DNA of 64,000 bases from Candidatus Bathycorpusculum hydrogenotrophicum (lineage in GTDB: Archaea > Thermoproteota > Bathyarchaeia > Bathyarchaeales > Bathycorpusculaceae): NCBI GenBank assembly GCA_009783705.1, contig WRCX01000005.1, positions 1-64,000 on the forward strand, read 5' to 3'. The notes under the pieces are model-generated. The model searched no databases. It saw only the letters and a program-made list of their open reading frames with translations, and was not told the DNA's origin. Below are positions 23,852-41,096 of this stretch, piece by piece. A program made the translations under genes and the position numbers. Position 1 is the first letter of the stretch. The number at the start of each line of letters is the position of its first letter.

Positions 23852-25285
23852 TTAGGGTTGCCACTTGTCGATGACGTACTTGGCGATCTCGCTGCTATCG
23901 CGTGGTCCAACCAAGACTTTCCAGCCAGATAGTTCTTCGATTTCGCCGCTGATGCGTGAGGCTTTGCCGGGGCTTATGATTTTGCGGTGTTTGACTTTGT
24001 TTTCGATGCCGCTTGCTTTGATTGCGTCTGCGATTTTTTCGGCGGTAAGTTTGCGTCCTGCGACTCCTGCGTCTATGGCTGCACCTTCTGCGTCAACTAC
24101 GATGAGGTAGGCGTTGGTTTTGCTACTCTCGATGTCTGAGGCAACGGTGTAGAAGGTTAGGGCAAAGTTGCTTGTGAACATGACTGGGCTGTTTTCATCA
24201 GGGGTACCAAAGACTTTGAGACCGGGTTCAACTGCGACTGGTTTTCTTGGGTCGGTGTAGATGTTTTGTCTTAGGACAACTGTTGGCAACAAGCTCCAGC
24301 CGTCGTTGCTGTGGAGTATGATTGCGTCTGCGAAGCGGGTTATGAGCATTGATGCAAGGTAGGATTCACGCCATTTGACGAGGTCGTCTGCGAGGTCACC
24401 TTTGTTTGCCCAAGCAACCATGGGGATGCCTATGAGGGGTAAACCTGCGAGTTCTTCGCCGCCTTTAGTGGCTGCGCGTCGTAGCACGGTAAAGTTGTTG
24501 AGTGTGTCTGCTAAGCCGTCGTTTGCAAAGGTTCCGGGGTCTAGTACGATGTCTTTGACGCCGTATTCTTGGAGAGTTTTTGCCAAGGAGATTAGAGCGT
24601 TTAGATCGTTTGGTGCGGATGCAACAAGGGGTGCATCGTACATGATGGCGAGTTCAGCCATTTCTTTCCAGTTGGTTGTGGTTGCAGCGTAGAGGAGTGG
24701 TCGGGCTTTGGGTGCGGCCATTAAGCCTGCTTCGGCTATGGCTGGGTTGAGGGCGACAAGGATGAGGGGGAGCTGGGTGGTTTCAGAAACTTTTTTGACG
24801 CATGCTTTGAATTTGTCTGCGTTTTCACTGGTGCTTCGAACAGCGATTAAGTCGAGTTTTAGTGTGTTGCCGATGTATTCGTAGCTAAAGTTATCGGTTT
24901 TTTGTACACGGCTGACGACTTCGCTCTCAGGCATTTCGTCAGTGACATCAATGGCGATGGCTGTGGGGTTTTTGTAGGTGAATTCGTGGCGGTACATGAC
25001 GAGTTTGCCGCCGATTTTTTTGGCTTTGTCGCCGATTCCGATTGTGACTTCTTTAACTGCGGGTTTGAGGAGTTCGCTTAGCAGAGCGTATTGTTTTGCG
25101 TTTTCGGGTTTTAGCAGTGGTTTGCATGCGTCGAGGTCAACTTCGCGGTTGACAATCTTTGTGGCAAATGCCATACAGTTTTCTTGACCGCATTCTTTAC
25201 AGTTGGTTTTAGGTAAGTTTTTGTAAATGGTGATGGGGCTGAGTTCTTTTAATCCGCCTTTTTTCTTTTCTGCCATACACTTCAT
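23852..25285 (-). CDS. cdhE: Acetyl-CoA decarbonylase/synthase gamma subunit (corrinoid Fe-S protein large subunit)
   Basis: N-terminal CKECGQENCMAFATKI plus 4Fe-4S cysteines; last gene of the cdh cluster. Confidence 0.94.
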   Translation of the reverse strand: MKCMAEKKKGGLKELSPITIYKNLPKTNCKECGQENCMAFATKIVNREVDLDACKPLLKPENAKQYALLSELLKPAVKEVTIGIGDKAKKIGGKLVMYRHEFTYKNPTAIAIDVTDEMPESEVVSRVQKTDNFSYEYIGNTLKLDLIAVRSTSENADKFKACVKKVSETTQLPLILVALNPAIAEAGLMAAPKARPLLYAATTTNWKEMAELAIMYDAPLVASAPNDLNALISLAKTLQEYGVKDIVLDPGTFANDGLADTLNNFTVLRRAATKGGEELAGLPLIGIPMVAWANKGDLADDLVKWRESYLASMLITRFADAIILHSNDGWSLLPTVVLRQNIYTDPRKPVAVEPGLKVFGTPDENSPVMFTSNFALTFYTVASDIESSKTNAYLIVVDAEGAAIDAGVAGRKLTAEKIADAIKASGIENKVKHRKIISPGKASRISGEIEELSGWKVLVGPRDSSEIAKYVIDKWQP

Positions 25286-32779: not shown

Positions 32780-33640
32780 GTGTGTTTGATGTCAACTAAA
32801 CAAACAGAGAAAAACCCAAGTAATAACATAGAGGACGAAATGGAGGCGCGAATTCTTGAGGGAGCCAAAGATGGGGCGCTGGGCGTTTATTGTAGTTTGT
32901 TTTCGGCAAAAAGTCAAATTGAGGGTCAAGACGGCGGCGTAGTTACCGCACTGTTGCTAAAGGGATTACAGAAGGGCTTGTTTGATGTGGCCATAGTTGT
33001 CCATCGTAAAAATGGATATAACGCAGAGGTCACAGCAGCAGAGACCACAGAGGAAATTTTGACATCAAAAGGCAGTGTCTACCATAGAGTCAACACAACC
33101 AAAAAGTTATTGGAGCTCGTAGCACAGGGCAAAAAACGCATAGCTGTTGTCTGCACACCCTGCGAGGGGGCAATAATTAGAAAGCTACAACAAACCCAGT
33201 GCAAAGATGTTGATCTCACTATTATTGGATTATTTTGTTTTGGTGCCTTTAATCCTCAAAGACTCAAAGAGGAAATACAAACACAATTGGGTGTTGATTT
33301 GGATAGGGCCACAAAAACACAGGTTAAACAGGGCAAATTCATCGTGTCTGTTGAGGGTGAAGAGGTTAGCTGTAGAATAGAAGATCTATTCAAAGCCTTT
33401 GAGGGGACCTGTGGTAGCTGTGGAGAGTTTGTTTCTCGACTAGCAGATATTTCCGTTGGTTCAGCAGGCAGCAAAAACGGGTATTCAACAGTGATTGTAC
33501 GCTCAGAAAAGGGCATAAAACTAGTGTCAGAGTTAGATGTACAAATAGACACAGCTGACAAACTAGAAATCACAAAACTAGCCAAACTCAAAAAAGAACA
33601 AGCAGAAAATAATAACACCAAACAACGCCAGAACCAATGA
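32780..33640 (+). CDS. FrhB-like coenzyme F420 hydrogenase/dehydrogenase beta subunit family protein
   Basis: GQDGGVVTALLLKGLQKGLFDVAIVV and CGSCGEFVSRLADISVGSAGSKNGYSTVIVRS. Confidence 0.82.
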   Translation: MCLMSTKQTEKNPSNNIEDEMEARILEGAKDGALGVYCSLFSAKSQIEGQDGGVVTALLLKGLQKGLFDVAIVVHRKNGYNAEVTAAETTEEILTSKGSVYHRVNTTKKLLELVAQGKKRIAVVCTPCEGAIIRKLQQTQCKDVDLTIIGLFCFGAFNPQRLKEEIQTQLGVDLDRATKTQVKQGKFIVSVEGEEVSCRIEDLFKAFEGTCGSCGEFVSRLADISVGSAGSKNGYSTVIVRSEKGIKLVSELDVQIDTADKLEITKLAKLKKEQAENNNTKQRQNQ

Positions 33641-33826: not shown

Positions 33827-34552
33827 ATGAAAATCTTAAACGAATTTGTGCCTACACGTAAATTCTTCAATCTTGCAGAAGAACTAAAAGACCTTGTTGA
33901 CGGATGGAACGTAACTGACAGCGCAGCCGGATTTCCAGCACCGAGCGGTGTCGTTGTTAGTTGCTTACTCAAAAACAAGTACCCAGACAAATATGTCTGC
34001 CCAATCTTCATACTACACTACAAAGGCCCCGTCGAAGTCGGCGGCTTAGCCCTTGCATCCGACGTCGTTGGTCTTGACGGCTTAGCAGTCACCATGGGAG
34101 ACAAACCTCACTACGGTGAAGCCATAAAGCAACTATCTTCATCTGAGGTTGCCCGGGACTTCATACGCAATGACGTAAAAACCAAGAAACTAAAACTTGG
34201 ATGCCTCCTAAGCGCAAGACAATCAATTGAAGACACCCTAGAACGTGTCCGTCAACCATGGGACTTCGTTTACTTTATGAGACTATGTGATGACTCATTT
34301 GACCAACTCAAAGCAGTCTCTGCAGAATGCAAAAAACTCAACAAACCCCTATTTGCATACTTCCTAGTCAGCACAGCAAAGAACACAGAAACCCTAAAAC
34401 TCATCGGCTGGCCAGTTTCTGCAACCATGGAAACCGTGGAAGAAAAAGCAGCCAAATGCGTCGGACTTGTCGACGGCCTCATCGCAACCTGTGCAGGCGA
34501 TGCTGAAGGCGACAAACTGATGCTACAAAAACTACAAAAATTCCGCGGCTAA
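33827..34552 (+). CDS. Methylenetetrahydrofolate reductase (MetF)-like protein, short form
   Basis: 241 aa TIM-barrel-like pattern with VTDSAAGFPAPSG, GLDGLAVTMGDKPHYGEA, LKLGCLLSAR; located beside CODH/ACS. Confidence 0.6.
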   Translation: MKILNEFVPTRKFFNLAEELKDLVDGWNVTDSAAGFPAPSGVVVSCLLKNKYPDKYVCPIFILHYKGPVEVGGLALASDVVGLDGLAVTMGDKPHYGEAIKQLSSSEVARDFIRNDVKTKKLKLGCLLSARQSIEDTLERVRQPWDFVYFMRLCDDSFDQLKAVSAECKKLNKPLFAYFLVSTAKNTETLKLIGWPVSATMETVEEKAAKCVGLVDGLIATCAGDAEGDKLMLQKLQKFRG

Positions 34553-34717: not shown

Positions 34718-35464
34718 GTGATTCCCCTTGAAGGATTACCACTAATACAAACAGGCGACAACCTAGGCAAAATGATTGTTAAAAACGCAGAAACCCAGGG
34801 CACACCAATCCAACCCGGCGATGTTGTGGTGGTCACACATGTAGTGGTCTCCAAAGCCGAGGGCAACATTGTAGACCTCAACACCGTTAAACCATCCCAA
34901 CGCGCCATAGAAATCGCCAAACAAACCAACAAAGACCCCGCACTTGTTGAGATTGTACTGCAAGAAACCAAAGACATCGTACGCCTAGGACAGAACAGCA
35001 TCATAACCGAAACCCACAGCGGCATCATCTGCGCAAACGCTGGCATTGACCACTCAAATGTCAGCGGCGACCAAAAAGTAGTGCCGTTGCCCAAAAACCC
35101 CAACGCCTCCGCAACAGCCATCCGAACAGAAATCAAACAATACAGCGGCGCAGAAGTAGCAGTTATTGTTGCAGACACACACGGCAGACCCTTTCGGATG
35201 GGAGAAATCAACGTAGCCATCGGCACAGCCGGATTTAATCCAATCCGAGACCGACGAGGCGAAAAAGACCTTTTTGGATATGTACTCAAAATTAAGCAAA
35301 CCGCAATAGCTGATGAACTGGCCTCTGCAGCAGAACTGGTGATGGGACAAGCCAGCGAAGGTATACCAGTTGCTATCGTGCGAGGCTACAAAGCATACCA
35401 ACCCACTGAAAACACAAATACAACCCCACTTACGCGACCCAAAGAGAAAGATCTCTTCAGATAA
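34718..35464 (+). CDS. cofE: Coenzyme F420-0:L-glutamate ligase (start uncertain, possibly slightly upstream)
   Basis: IPLEGLPLIQTGDNLGKMIVKNA, VVVTHVVVSKAEGNIVDL, DTHGRPFRMGEINVAIGTAGFNPIRDRRGEKDLFG. Confidence 0.92.
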   Translation: MIPLEGLPLIQTGDNLGKMIVKNAETQGTPIQPGDVVVVTHVVVSKAEGNIVDLNTVKPSQRAIEIAKQTNKDPALVEIVLQETKDIVRLGQNSIITETHSGIICANAGIDHSNVSGDQKVVPLPKNPNASATAIRTEIKQYSGAEVAVIVADTHGRPFRMGEINVAIGTAGFNPIRDRRGEKDLFGYVLKIKQTAIADELASAAELVMGQASEGIPVAIVRGYKAYQPTENTNTTPLTRPKEKDLFR

Positions 35465-37263: not shown

Positions 37264-38562
37264 TTATTGTTTTGCCATTTTAACGTTGTGTGATAGTGGT
37301 AGTCTGACTGGACAGACATAGGAGCAGGTTCCGCATGCGATGCAGTCGTTTGCCCAAAGTTTCCCAGCTAGTTCGAAGTTACCTTTGACAACAGCGTTGT
37401 GTATTGCTACGGGTTGTAGGCGTACTGGACAGGCGCTGACGCATCTGCCGCAGTGGATACAGGCGGTGGTTTTCTGTGCTTGTTTGGCTTTGTCCTTTGC
37501 AAAGCAGATGATGCTTGAGGTGCGTTTAGTTATTGGGGCGTCGAGAGTTTGGAGTGCTGTACCCATGAGAACTCCGCCGACTACGACTGAGCTCAGGGTG
37601 GATAAGTTGACGTTGTTGGCGCTGAGGATTTCTTTGACTGGGGTGCCGATTTTTACTTGGAGGTTTTTGGGTTTTGGAACATCGCCGTTTAGGGTAGTGA
37701 CTCTGCTTATGAGGGGTTCACCTTCAAAGACTGCGTTTGCAATAGCGTTTATGGTTGCAACGTTTTGTACGATGGTTCCCATTTCGTAGCTGCGTTTGCC
37801 TGCGGGGGTTTCGTAGCCTAGGATTGCTTTTTGCATCATAGCTGCGTCGCCTTGCTGGTAGGTTAGATGTGCTGCGCGGACTTCGGTGTTGGGTTCTTTG
37901 CTGAATGCTTCTTCGAGTTTTGGTACGGCTTCGACTTTGCTTTCTTTGGTAACGATGATGACTTTGGGGTTGCCTAAGAGTTTGCGGACTACGCGGACAC
38001 CGCGAACTAGGTTTGCAGTGCGTTCAATCATGATGCGTTCGTCGGCTGTGTCGTAGGGTTCGCCTTCTGCGCCGTTAACTAGGAGGTGTTGGATTTTTTT
38101 GTCTGCAGGTACTGCTAGTTTGACAGATGTGGGGAATCCTGCGCCGCCAAGGCCGATTATGCCGGCTTCGCGGATAATTTTTAGGAGGTCTTCGTTTTTG
38201 GTGTTGGCTAATTCTGCTTCAGTGATGGAGGTTAGGGGTTTGGCTTTAGTTTTTTTGCCGTCGTTTTCGATATAGATAGCTTCGGTGGGTGCTTCAAAGC
38301 AACTGTTGTAGGCGTTTTCGATTTTGATGACTGTACCGCTTATGGGGCTGTGTATAGGTGCGCTGACTCTTTCTTTGGCGTCTGCGATTTTTTCTCCGAT
38401 AGTTACAGTGTCACCGACTTTTATGATGGGTGTGTTTGTTGCTCCGCCTTGCTGGTTAGTTAGTACAACTGCGATTTTTGGATCTGGGAAGATCTCGATC
38501 GGGGTTTTGCGTGCTAGGTCTTTTACTTCTGGTATGTGAACTAAGTTTGCCATTTTAATCAT
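37264..38562 (-). CDS. RnfC-like electron transport subunit (NADH/FMN-binding plus 2x4Fe-4S)
   Basis: GLGGAGFPTSVKL, VNGAEGEPYDTADERIM, CIHCGRCVSACPVRL and CIACGTCSYVCPVRLPL. Confidence 0.9.
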   Translation of the reverse strand: MIKMANLVHIPEVKDLARKTPIEIFPDPKIAVVLTNQQGGATNTPIIKVGDTVTIGEKIADAKERVSAPIHSPISGTVIKIENAYNSCFEAPTEAIYIENDGKKTKAKPLTSITEAELANTKNEDLLKIIREAGIIGLGGAGFPTSVKLAVPADKKIQHLLVNGAEGEPYDTADERIMIERTANLVRGVRVVRKLLGNPKVIIVTKESKVEAVPKLEEAFSKEPNTEVRAAHLTYQQGDAAMMQKAILGYETPAGKRSYEMGTIVQNVATINAIANAVFEGEPLISRVTTLNGDVPKPKNLQVKIGTPVKEILSANNVNLSTLSSVVVGGVLMGTALQTLDAPITKRTSSIICFAKDKAKQAQKTTACIHCGRCVSACPVRLQPVAIHNAVVKGNFELAGKLWANDCIACGTCSYVCPVRLPLSHNVKMAKQ

Positions 38563-39680
38563 CTCCCAAAGGGTTTGTTGATGCGAACTTTGTCAATAAC
38601 TGGTACAAGCAGGTTCATGATCAACAATGCCAACAATGAGCCGCCGAAGAAACCCATAAAGGTTTGTATCGAAATAGTCAAAATTGCGAGGCCGACACCG
38701 AATATGATTTGTCCGGTTCCACTAAAGGGTGTTGTCGCTGGATCGGTTGCCATAAAGAACGCTAAGAATATTGAGCTACCGGCGAAGAGCGAGAAGAGCA
38801 ATCGAGTGATTAGGTCTACATCTCCAAATATGAAGGAGAATATCAAAGACGTAGCAGCCATAGCGATGAGATAGCTTGCAGTGATTTTCCATTTAAAGTA
38901 TTTACGGCCAACAACAAAGAGTGCAACACCTGCGATGATGACAGCTATGCTTGATGCACCGCCAACCCAACCATGGTACTTTGTCAGCAACATGATTGAT
39001 TCTACGCTAGCCTCTGTTCCGTTAGGTGAGCCAAAGCATCCCTGCAGATAGGCACCAAACGAGGCATAGCCGTTGCCTGCAGTTCCTAAGCCATCAGCGG
39101 GACTGCCAATGGGGCCTGCAAGTGAGGGAACCATTAGCATACCGGTGCTTAGGTGCCAGCTTGTGATAAGCGTTGTAAATGTTGTCGGTATTAGGACTAG
39201 GAATTTGGCGGCGGCTGCGGGGTTAACTAGTTTTCTGCCTGCTATGCTTGCGACTTTTTTGAAAACAACGATACCAATGATGGAGATTAACGCGATGTAG
39301 AAGAATGCGAGAGGTGCCTCAACGGGTACTCCAACTTCCATACCCATTGCCATTGAAGGAAAACCAAGAGTAAAACAGTTAATGACGATTAAACCAAAAA
39401 CTGCGGCTGACCAAGTATTAACTTCGCTATCAGAGGTGACTTTACCGATAAGAAAGTCGATTGCTACGGCTAAGCCTACTGCAATGAGAGTACCGATGGC
39501 AACGGTTAAGCCTAAGTTCCATCCGGAGGGCGTGACGACATCTGACCAGAGTACAGCGGAAACGATGGTAACTGCGAGAATAGCAATGAAAGTGTATTGC
39601 ATCATACGGTCTTTTGTCATAGATCCGTGAATGTGTGGTGCTGGATTTACAACCAGTTCATTTGAGGATTCGTTACTCAT
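38559..39680 (-). CDS. RnfD/NqrB-family integral membrane subunit
   Basis: APHIHGSMTKDRMMQYTFIAIL, NPAAAAKF, FFMATDPATTPFSGTGQIIFGVGLAILT, LLIMNLLVPVIDKV; multiple TMs. Confidence 0.88.
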   Translation of the reverse strand: MSNESSNELVVNPAPHIHGSMTKDRMMQYTFIAILAVTIVSAVLWSDVVTPSGWNLGLTVAIGTLIAVGLAVAIDFLIGKVTSDSEVNTWSAAVFGLIVINCFTLGFPSMAMGMEVGVPVEAPLAFFYIALISIIGIVVFKKVASIAGRKLVNPAAAAKFLVLIPTTFTTLITSWHLSTGMLMVPSLAGPIGSPADGLGTAGNGYASFGAYLQGCFGSPNGTEASVESIMLLTKYHGWVGGASSIAVIIAGVALFVVGRKYFKWKITASYLIAMAATSLIFSFIFGDVDLITRLLFSLFAGSSIFLAFFMATDPATTPFSGTGQIIFGVGLAILTISIQTFMGFFGGSLLALLIMNLLVPVIDKVRINKPFGR

Positions 39681-39989: not shown

Positions 39990-41096
39990 ATGAATCCAAT
40001 CACTGACCCATTGTTCATGGTTGTTTGGCGCTGTACTCGTAACTGTGTTGGAAGTTGTACATATTGCAGTTACACCAAAGAATACGCTAAAGACCAGGAA
40101 CTAAGCACCGAACAGGCCAAGCATATGGTTGATGAAATGGCAGAGTTCGGCTCAAAATGGCTTGGAATCAGCGGCGGAGAACCTTTGGTTCGCCCAGACA
40201 TATGGGAAGTCATCGAATACGCAGAAAAGAAGCATGATATGAAAGTCAGCCTAATCACAAGCGGCTTTGCATGGGACGAAAAACGCTTTGATCTGCTCCG
40301 CAAATATGACGTCCACACTGCCATTAGCATTGATGGTAACAGAGAATCAAACGATCTAACCCGCCGCAAAGGCGGCTACGACATGGCACTACATGCCATG
40401 AAGAAACTTAGCGAAGTTGGGCTCCTAGACTGTTTAGTCACCACCATGACTAAAATCAACATAAACCACATGGCACACCCAGCAGAACTCGCTGAAGAAT
40501 ACAAAGCCCGCATGCTAGTCTACCACAACCTGGTTCCAGTGGGCAGAGCAAGAGATCACATGGAAGACTTGGCACCCACACCAGAGCAGTACGAAACAAC
40601 ATTTGATGAGATCTATGAAATCCAACGCAAACTCTACGGCAAAGTCAAAATCCATGTCTATGCACCCTTCTACGCACGTATAGTACGACAAAAAAACCCC
40701 GCCAACTTTTGGGCCTGGTACAATGAGGGTTACTTGGGCAAATGCAGCATAGGCGGCAACTATATAGGCATAACAGAAAACGGCGACTATCGAAGCTGCG
40801 GCTTCCATGAAGGCTACCGCATCGGCAACGTCAAAACCAAAAAACTAAGAACCGCCTGGGAAGAACTCCAACAAAGTCCTCTGCACCTCCAGCTACGCGA
40901 CAAAAACAACCTCAAAGGCAGATGTGGTATCTGTGAATACAGAGAAATTTGCGGCGGATGCCGAACACGTGCAGAACACTACACAGGCGACCTCTTCGCA
41001 TCAGACCCCGCATGCAACTATATCCCCAAGATCCTACGTGAAGACCCCAAAATCTTGGAAGAACTTCAAAAAAATCCTCTGGGTAAAAAACAATAA
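39990..41096 (+). CDS. Radical SAM protein with SPASM-like C-terminus
   Basis: CVGSCTYC (CX3CX2C), GISGGEPLVRPDI, C-terminal CGICEYREICGGCRTRAEHYTGDLFASDPAC. Confidence 0.9.
   Translation: MNPITDPLFMVVWRCTRNCVGSCTYCSYTKEYAKDQELSTEQAKHMVDEMAEFGSKWLGISGGEPLVRPDIWEVIEYAEKKHDMKVSLITSGFAWDEKRFDLLRKYDVHTAISIDGNRESNDLTRRKGGYDMALHAMKKLSEVGLLDCLVTTMTKININHMAHPAELAEEYKARMLVYHNLVPVGRARDHMEDLAPTPEQYETTFDEIYEIQRKLYGKVKIHVYAPFYARIVRQKNPANFWAWYNEGYLGKCSIGGNYIGITENGDYRSCGFHEGYRIGNVKTKKLRTAWEELQQSPLHLQLRDKNNLKGRCGICEYREICGGCRTRAEHYTGDLFASDPACNYIPKILREDPKILEELQKNPLGKKQ

Follow-up and report, generated by a model that had tools for sequence, protein, structure and literature searches.

The Rnf complex is a six-part respiratory ion pump. 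In known F420H2 dehydrogenases, FrhB-type subunits are attached to hydrogenase or complex-I-like parts, and we know of none attached to RnfD. Structure and mutants of the A. woodii complex place Na+ translocation in RnfA/E and leave RnfD with electron transfer only; in this RnfD, N123 and D249 bind riboflavin and T156 carries FMN (PMC11889175). In C. tetanomorphum, RnfD carries FMN on T153, near R130, E185, and S284, its N124 and D248, both conserved, match the riboflavin ligands, and it docks with an N-terminal arm buried in RnfC and a C-terminal arm on the RnfC surface (PMC9588780). NqrB, a subunit of Na+-NQR, passes riboflavin electrons to quinone at the protein surface (PMC12174285). Bacterial Nqr/Rnf-like two-subunit complexes have an RnfD/NqrB-like protein, a PF00175 NAD domain, a flavinylated RnfG/NqrC-like partner, and ApbE, and one-way electron transfer is proposed for them (Meheust 2021, PMC8238504; PMC10979944). 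For Bathyarchaeia, RnfABCDEG were not detected in Bathy-6 (Loh et al., PMC7886697), and in the Polar Fox study RnfC (4 of 19 MAGs) and RnfD (3 of 19) are listed as isolated, uninterpreted matches, with no module described (PMC9534799).

The window analyzed here, 64,000 nucleotides of the Candidatus Bathycorpusculum hydrogenotrophicum genome, holds an rnfC and an rnfD-like gene, both intact (table 1). A sequence-only reading of the window had the two overlapping by 4 nt, and coordinates, strand, and overlap are all exact; the overlap suggests translational coupling. It also described the first product as RnfC-like with two 4Fe-4S motifs. This product is a full-length rnfC-family protein, above the TIGR01945 cut-off, and has Complex1_51K and RnfC_N domains, the FMN/NADH motif, and eight of eight cluster cysteines in two 4Fe-4S motifs. 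It thus shares the NADH/FMN and 2[4Fe-4S] domains of RnfC in the solved Rnf complexes (C. tetanomorphum 7ZC6 and A. woodii 9ERI, RnfABCDGE), and its closest solved chain is C. tetanomorphum RnfC. The RnfD-like protein has the RnfD fold, and its AlphaFold model resembles solved RnfD/NqrB structures. In profile searches, it falls below the rnfD subfamily cut-off (TIGR01946, 95 vs. 207.05 bits) and the nqrB cut-off (TIGR01937, 54.5 vs. 349.9 bits).

Table 1. Features of the rnfC-rnfD locus, with positions in the window
Feature	Position	Strand	Details
rnfC gene	37264..38562	-	432 aa, P0001; TIGR01945 404.5 bits vs. cut-off 245.95; PDB RnfC 7zc6, E 2e-91
RnfC 2[4Fe-4S] domain, residues 364-420	37303..37473	-	Fer4 families; CxxCxxCxxxCP twice
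RnfC FMN/NADH domain (Complex1_51K, GLGGAGFPTSVKL)	37738..38175	-	PF01512, 128 bits, residues 130-275
RnfC N-terminal barrel-sandwich domain (RnfC_N)	38254..38541	-	PF13375
Overlap of rnfD stop and rnfC start, 4 nt	38559..38562	-	From coordinates
rnfD-like gene	38559..39680	-	373 aa, P0002; PF03116 135 bits, cut-off 27.7
RnfD C-terminal arm KPFGR	38562..38576	-	Aligned with canonical RnfC-surface arm
RnfD D313, predicted riboflavin ligand (= C. tetanomorphum D248, A. woodii D249)	38742..38744	-	D in 57/57
RnfD H236, lineage-specific invariant His, motif [YFW]H[GST]W	38973..38975	-	57/57; absent in E. coli RsxD
RnfD V184, column of covalent-FMN Thr (C. tetanomorphum T153)	39129..39131	-	V, M, or I in 46/57; Thr in 0/57
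RnfD H176, lineage-specific invariant His, interhelical linker	39153..39155	-	57/57; absent in E. coli RsxD
RnfD N153, predicted riboflavin ligand (= C. tetanomorphum N124, A. woodii N123)	39222..39224	-	N in 56/57, one gap
RnfD N-terminal arm VNPAPHIHG, residues 11-19	39624..39650	-	Aligned with canonical arm (A. woodii SSPHIRAK)
Radical SAM/SPASM gene, AhbD/PqqE-like	39990..41096	+	Divergent from rnfD; below all cut-offs

Unlike the six-subunit Rnf complex, the system lacks RnfA, RnfE, RnfG, ApbE, and any RnfB beyond one domain. The sequence-only reading reported no rnfA, B, E, G, or apbE in the window, and the statement now extends to the whole genome, in which PF02508 (RnfA/E; profile search), PF04205 (FMN-binding, RnfG-type), and ApbE are absent and a single PF03116 (RnfD-family) gene is present. 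The one exception is the only match to PF04060 (RnfB-type FeS domain), at 25118-25216 inside a 477-aa ORF (23852-25285) of the CODH/ACS region. That the missing subunits are encoded elsewhere in the genome was rejected on these searches. Since the sole PF04060 match is a gene of this kind, published RnfB hits may likewise be CODH/ACS-region genes. A meaning for the distance of ∼6 kb to CODH/ACS, which the sequence-only reading pointed out, is not supported; nearness to CODH/ACS is not seen in the other loci read. The resemblance to Na+-NQR is limited to NqrB (fold and riboflavin site); NQR partners are missing here, including PF02508 (NqrD/E).

Across the class, PF03116 is present in 56 of 257 genomes, PF02508 is above cut-off in none of the 257, and ApbE is found in one, as a marginal match. 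The RnfD module is therefore a class-wide feature and not a fragment. Assembly gaps in the window's genome (2.24 Mb, 95.8% complete, 107 contigs) could in principle have hidden the other subunits, but the 257 genomes without RnfA/E above cut-off include three in a single contig (G050, G052, and G131) and the control genomes do return matches, making this explanation extremely improbable. Among 398 genomes across the phylum, the PF03116 carriers among the matches listed all belong to the window's order. Conserved RnfD peptides compared with 84,980 species, a scan that detects only proteins close to this RnfD variant, return only records with Bathyarchaeia names, their own or those of relatives (some records are labeled only Nitrososphaerota or Crenarchaeota). 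The closest relatives that have names are Bathyarchaeia, from termite guts among others (Ca. Bathycorpusculum and related MAGs).

Architectures of 59 RnfD homologues, classified from neighborhoods of up to 20 kb, differ in what is coupled to RnfD. The window's arrangement, RnfD plus RnfC (type A), occurs at 20 of 59 loci, with a gap of -4 nt in 19 of these 20. At 32 loci (type B), RnfD is fused to a C-terminal RnfC-tail-like 2[4Fe-4S] domain, for which rnfC models are the best match. Five loci (type C) encode RnfD-2[4Fe-4S]-FrhB, an F420-type module in which Pfam confirms FrhB_FdhB N and C domains in all three proteins scanned, as in FrhB/FpoF-type F420 modules. Two homologues are unassigned or truncated. 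A strong RnfC_N match is found in the 20 type-A genomes and in one unrelated place, and RnfD adjoins the type-A RnfC in 20 of 20 genomes having that RnfC (p = 2.6e-15, relatedness not corrected). The unrelated place (L151:24-1325) is on a short contig from another family, in a genome without RnfD (G056); it encodes a full-length RnfC-like protein, with no Rnf gene beside it on these 5.3 kb. One MAG with 6% contamination (G085, palsa_989) has three RnfD paralogues, which are type A, type B, and RnfD alone (L034, L054, and L059, respectively).

By sequence, RnfC is one of several predicted electron-input modules on the same RnfD in related genomes. Because relatives carry that RnfD with a fused 2[4Fe-4S] or 2[4Fe-4S]-FrhB, electron input is predicted to be exchangeable between lineages (NADH-type, F420-type, or Fe-S only). 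The RnfD tree, rooted on E. coli with an outgroup branch too long to order types A and B, is compatible with a single origin of type A (weak support) and requires at least four changes for type C, indicating that FrhB was gained or lost repeatedly. As in bacterial Nqr/Rnf-like pairs, a cytosolic electron-input domain is paired with an RnfD/NqrB-like protein in which the flavinylation Thr is not conserved. Unlike in those pairs, the input is RnfC, 2[4Fe-4S], or FrhB and not PF00175 (no match in P0002 or five relatives scanned), no FMN-binding partner is present in the window's own genome, and no ApbE was found. A literature search found no publication combining RnfD, FrhB, and fusion. The window also encodes a stand-alone FrhB-type protein (32780-33640, +) with ∼50% identity to the type-C fused FrhB domain, which is a possible free F420 partner. 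The adjoining gene (33827-34552, +) encodes a 241-aa protein with no Pfam or NCBIfam match that by eye seems to be of the TIM-barrel methylene-carrier reductase type, and the gene after it (34718-35464) appears by eye to be CofE-like.

The arms of RnfD follow the distribution of RnfC. Both arms that dock RnfC in the Rnf complex are recognizable by sequence as PAPHI and KPFGR. All 20 type-A RnfD proteins have the longer N-terminal arm with PAPHI or PPPQI and end in KPFGR, one with an extra Lys; canonical RnfD has FGK or YGR. Type-B proteins, among those whose starts are listed, begin directly or nearly so with MSKPK(E/D)YS and have no N-terminal arm. That arms and RnfC go together supports the prediction that RnfC and RnfD form a real complex.

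Residues of the two flavin sites of RnfD, transferred by alignment with canonical RnfD and tallied over 57 aligned relatives, have had different fates. Both riboflavin ligands (N153 and D313) are kept, as in the Rnf complex. At the FMN site, most relatives have R130 replaced by K, E185 by G, and S284 by I or L (C. tetanomorphum numbering). The sequence-only reading had found no SGAT-type covalent FMN site in RnfD, and none of the 57 relatives has such a motif in the relevant loop or a Thr in the attachment column. A hidden flavinylation site was considered and rejected, as none of three alignment registers has a conserved Thr. The first places the Thr at V184, judged by the PxLA motif that follows and by the distance to the riboflavin Asn, which is 31 residues here against 29-33 in C. 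tetanomorphum and A. woodii. The second puts it at S218, a position without SGAT context where 35 of 57 proteins have Asn, and the third, an NqrB profile alignment, puts it in an FGxY stretch. The earlier picture of a reduced RnfC-RnfD module without covalent FMN is supported, with other subunits and the attachment-column Thr both absent.

Because riboflavin ligands are kept and FMN-site residues changed, RnfD seems to have kept the inner half of its electron path and rebuilt the outer half. The old FMN cavity may hold a noncovalent FMN. Lineage-specific invariants are H176, K234, H236, W238, and R293, and C215 is Cys in 55 of 57; heme bound by the two invariant His would be an idea only. Missing subunits and a changed FMN site could also mark a decaying remnant of a full Rnf complex. 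But across 57 diverged proteins, little or no variation is seen at the riboflavin ligands, the cluster cysteines, and many further positions, reading frames are open, gene order is conserved, and new fusions recur. Residue conservation in particular disfavors decay, which we regard as very improbable.

Neighboring genes are also conserved. The sequence-only reading took both flanks to be unrelated; this fails for the divergent radical SAM gene, which lies within 3.5 kb upstream of rnfD in 39 of 59 loci with 63-99% identity in most. AhbD (heme b synthase), TIGR04053, and NirJ2 match it best among named families, none of them above cut-off, and its best PDB match is PqqE. A second radical SAM gene, HemN/HutW-like (best named match ChuW/HutW, far below cut-off), converges in 27 loci on c4, which encodes a six-helix membrane protein and follows rnfD or rnfC in 31 of 59 loci. 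Such linkage raises the possibility that the module is a dedicated reductant supply for the linked AhbD/PqqE-like and HutW/HemN-like enzymes or handles their tetrapyrrole- or PQQ-like cofactor. We consider this unlikely, as every match is far below curated cut-offs, reducing cytosolic radical SAM enzymes needs no membrane protein, and the link is missing in several loci. Large PQQ-type beta-propeller-like proteins (clusters c6 and c15) are encoded near several RnfD loci (L053, L074, and others), and expansion of PQQ-type beta-propeller genes is described in Bathy-6 (PMC11697101).

Orthologues of c4, with status set by hand from E-values and contig-end pieces, occur in 53 of the 56 genomes with RnfD and in 4 of the remaining 201 (hypergeometric p = 2.7e-46, with no correction for relatedness). 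The window's genome does not have c4 at rnfD; the gene is in two pieces, on contigs C72 (G000:C72:9747) and C13 (G000:C13:38801), cut by both contig ends; the HemN-like gene adjoins the C13 piece. Contig ends interrupt c4 in six or more related assemblies (including G107:C93, G103:C32, G097:C3, G093:C104, and G092:C32), so that its first ∼55-85 residues are encoded on one contig and its last ∼30-40 on another, and a repeat, insertion, or variable segment inside c4 may break assembly. The protein has no sequence-family match. A fold search with its AlphaFold model (pLDDT 84) found weak likeness to ECF S-components, with ThiT ahead of RibU and BtuM (best E 0.008, probability 1.00, TM 0.44 by query). 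Having no invariant Cys and no RnfA/E fold match, c4 was rejected as a disguised RnfA/E. It is a candidate for a near-constant second membrane partner of RnfD, encoded elsewhere in the window's genome, and we infer for it a role as a subunit.

A six-helix membrane protein co-occurring with RnfD invites an alternative in which c4 replaces RnfA/E and RnfD uses the flow of electrons from NADH or F420H2 to drive Na+ or H+ transport, in line with older models that put Na+ translocation in RnfD/NqrB (PMC9588780). But RnfA/E, which translocate Na+ in A. woodii where RnfD does not (PMC11889175), are absent, c4 has no invariant Cys for an intramembrane Fe-S center, and the Arg and Tyr of a proposed Na+ site are Q and F here. 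A redox-driven pump is quite improbable. Compared with the Rnf complex, the system lacks both the covalent FMN site of RnfD and any known ion-pumping subunit, and it has c4 as a candidate partner.

We suggest that the rnfC-rnfD product is probably a reduced, nonpumping, donor-swappable RnfD-based membrane oxidoreductase and not an Rnf ion pump. This reading is built on gene content, architectures, site conservation, and co-occurrence, and from these we infer cofactor occupancy and direction of flow. By homology and intact sites, NADH would be oxidized at the FMN of RnfC, and electrons would pass via the two [4Fe-4S] clusters of RnfC to a noncovalent riboflavin of RnfD in the cytoplasmic half of the membrane. 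In relatives, RnfD would be fed via the fused 2[4Fe-4S] or the fused, F420-type 2[4Fe-4S]-FrhB. With the extracytosolic covalent FMN gone, electrons would exit from riboflavin to another acceptor, for which NqrB, whose riboflavin reduces ubiquinone, is a precedent. The acceptor would most likely be a small or lipophilic molecule reached with help of c4, a candidate for presenting it. A quinone-like acceptor is weakened because no known quinone pathway was found in Bathy-6 (PMC11697101). Pumping is not expected since ion translocation belongs to RnfA/E in A. woodii. That c4 lies beside rnfD at no more than about half of the loci, and on other contigs and in pieces in the window's genome, weighs against the oxidoreductase reading. 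More tentatively, nonflavinylated RnfD and a solitary S-component-like protein presenting a small-molecule acceptor might form a two-protein membrane core with a plug-in input for NADH, F420H2, or ferredoxin, possibly a previously undescribed class of machine in Bathyarchaeia that fills a noted gap in electron disposal.

Bathyarchaeia are abundant, little-known anaerobic archaea whose electron sinks are unresolved. Two Rnf genes kept without pump parts suggest a hitherto undescribed route for electrons into the membrane, and a conserved RnfD core on which NADH-, F420-, and Fe-S-type inputs are interchangeable is a concrete candidate for membrane electron entry. Ca. Bathyarchaeum tardum, which carries an RnfD module, is in enrichment culture. 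The module would represent an evolutionary split between electron transfer by RnfD and ion pumping, and it provides a natural test of whether the riboflavin of RnfD can work without a covalent FMN.
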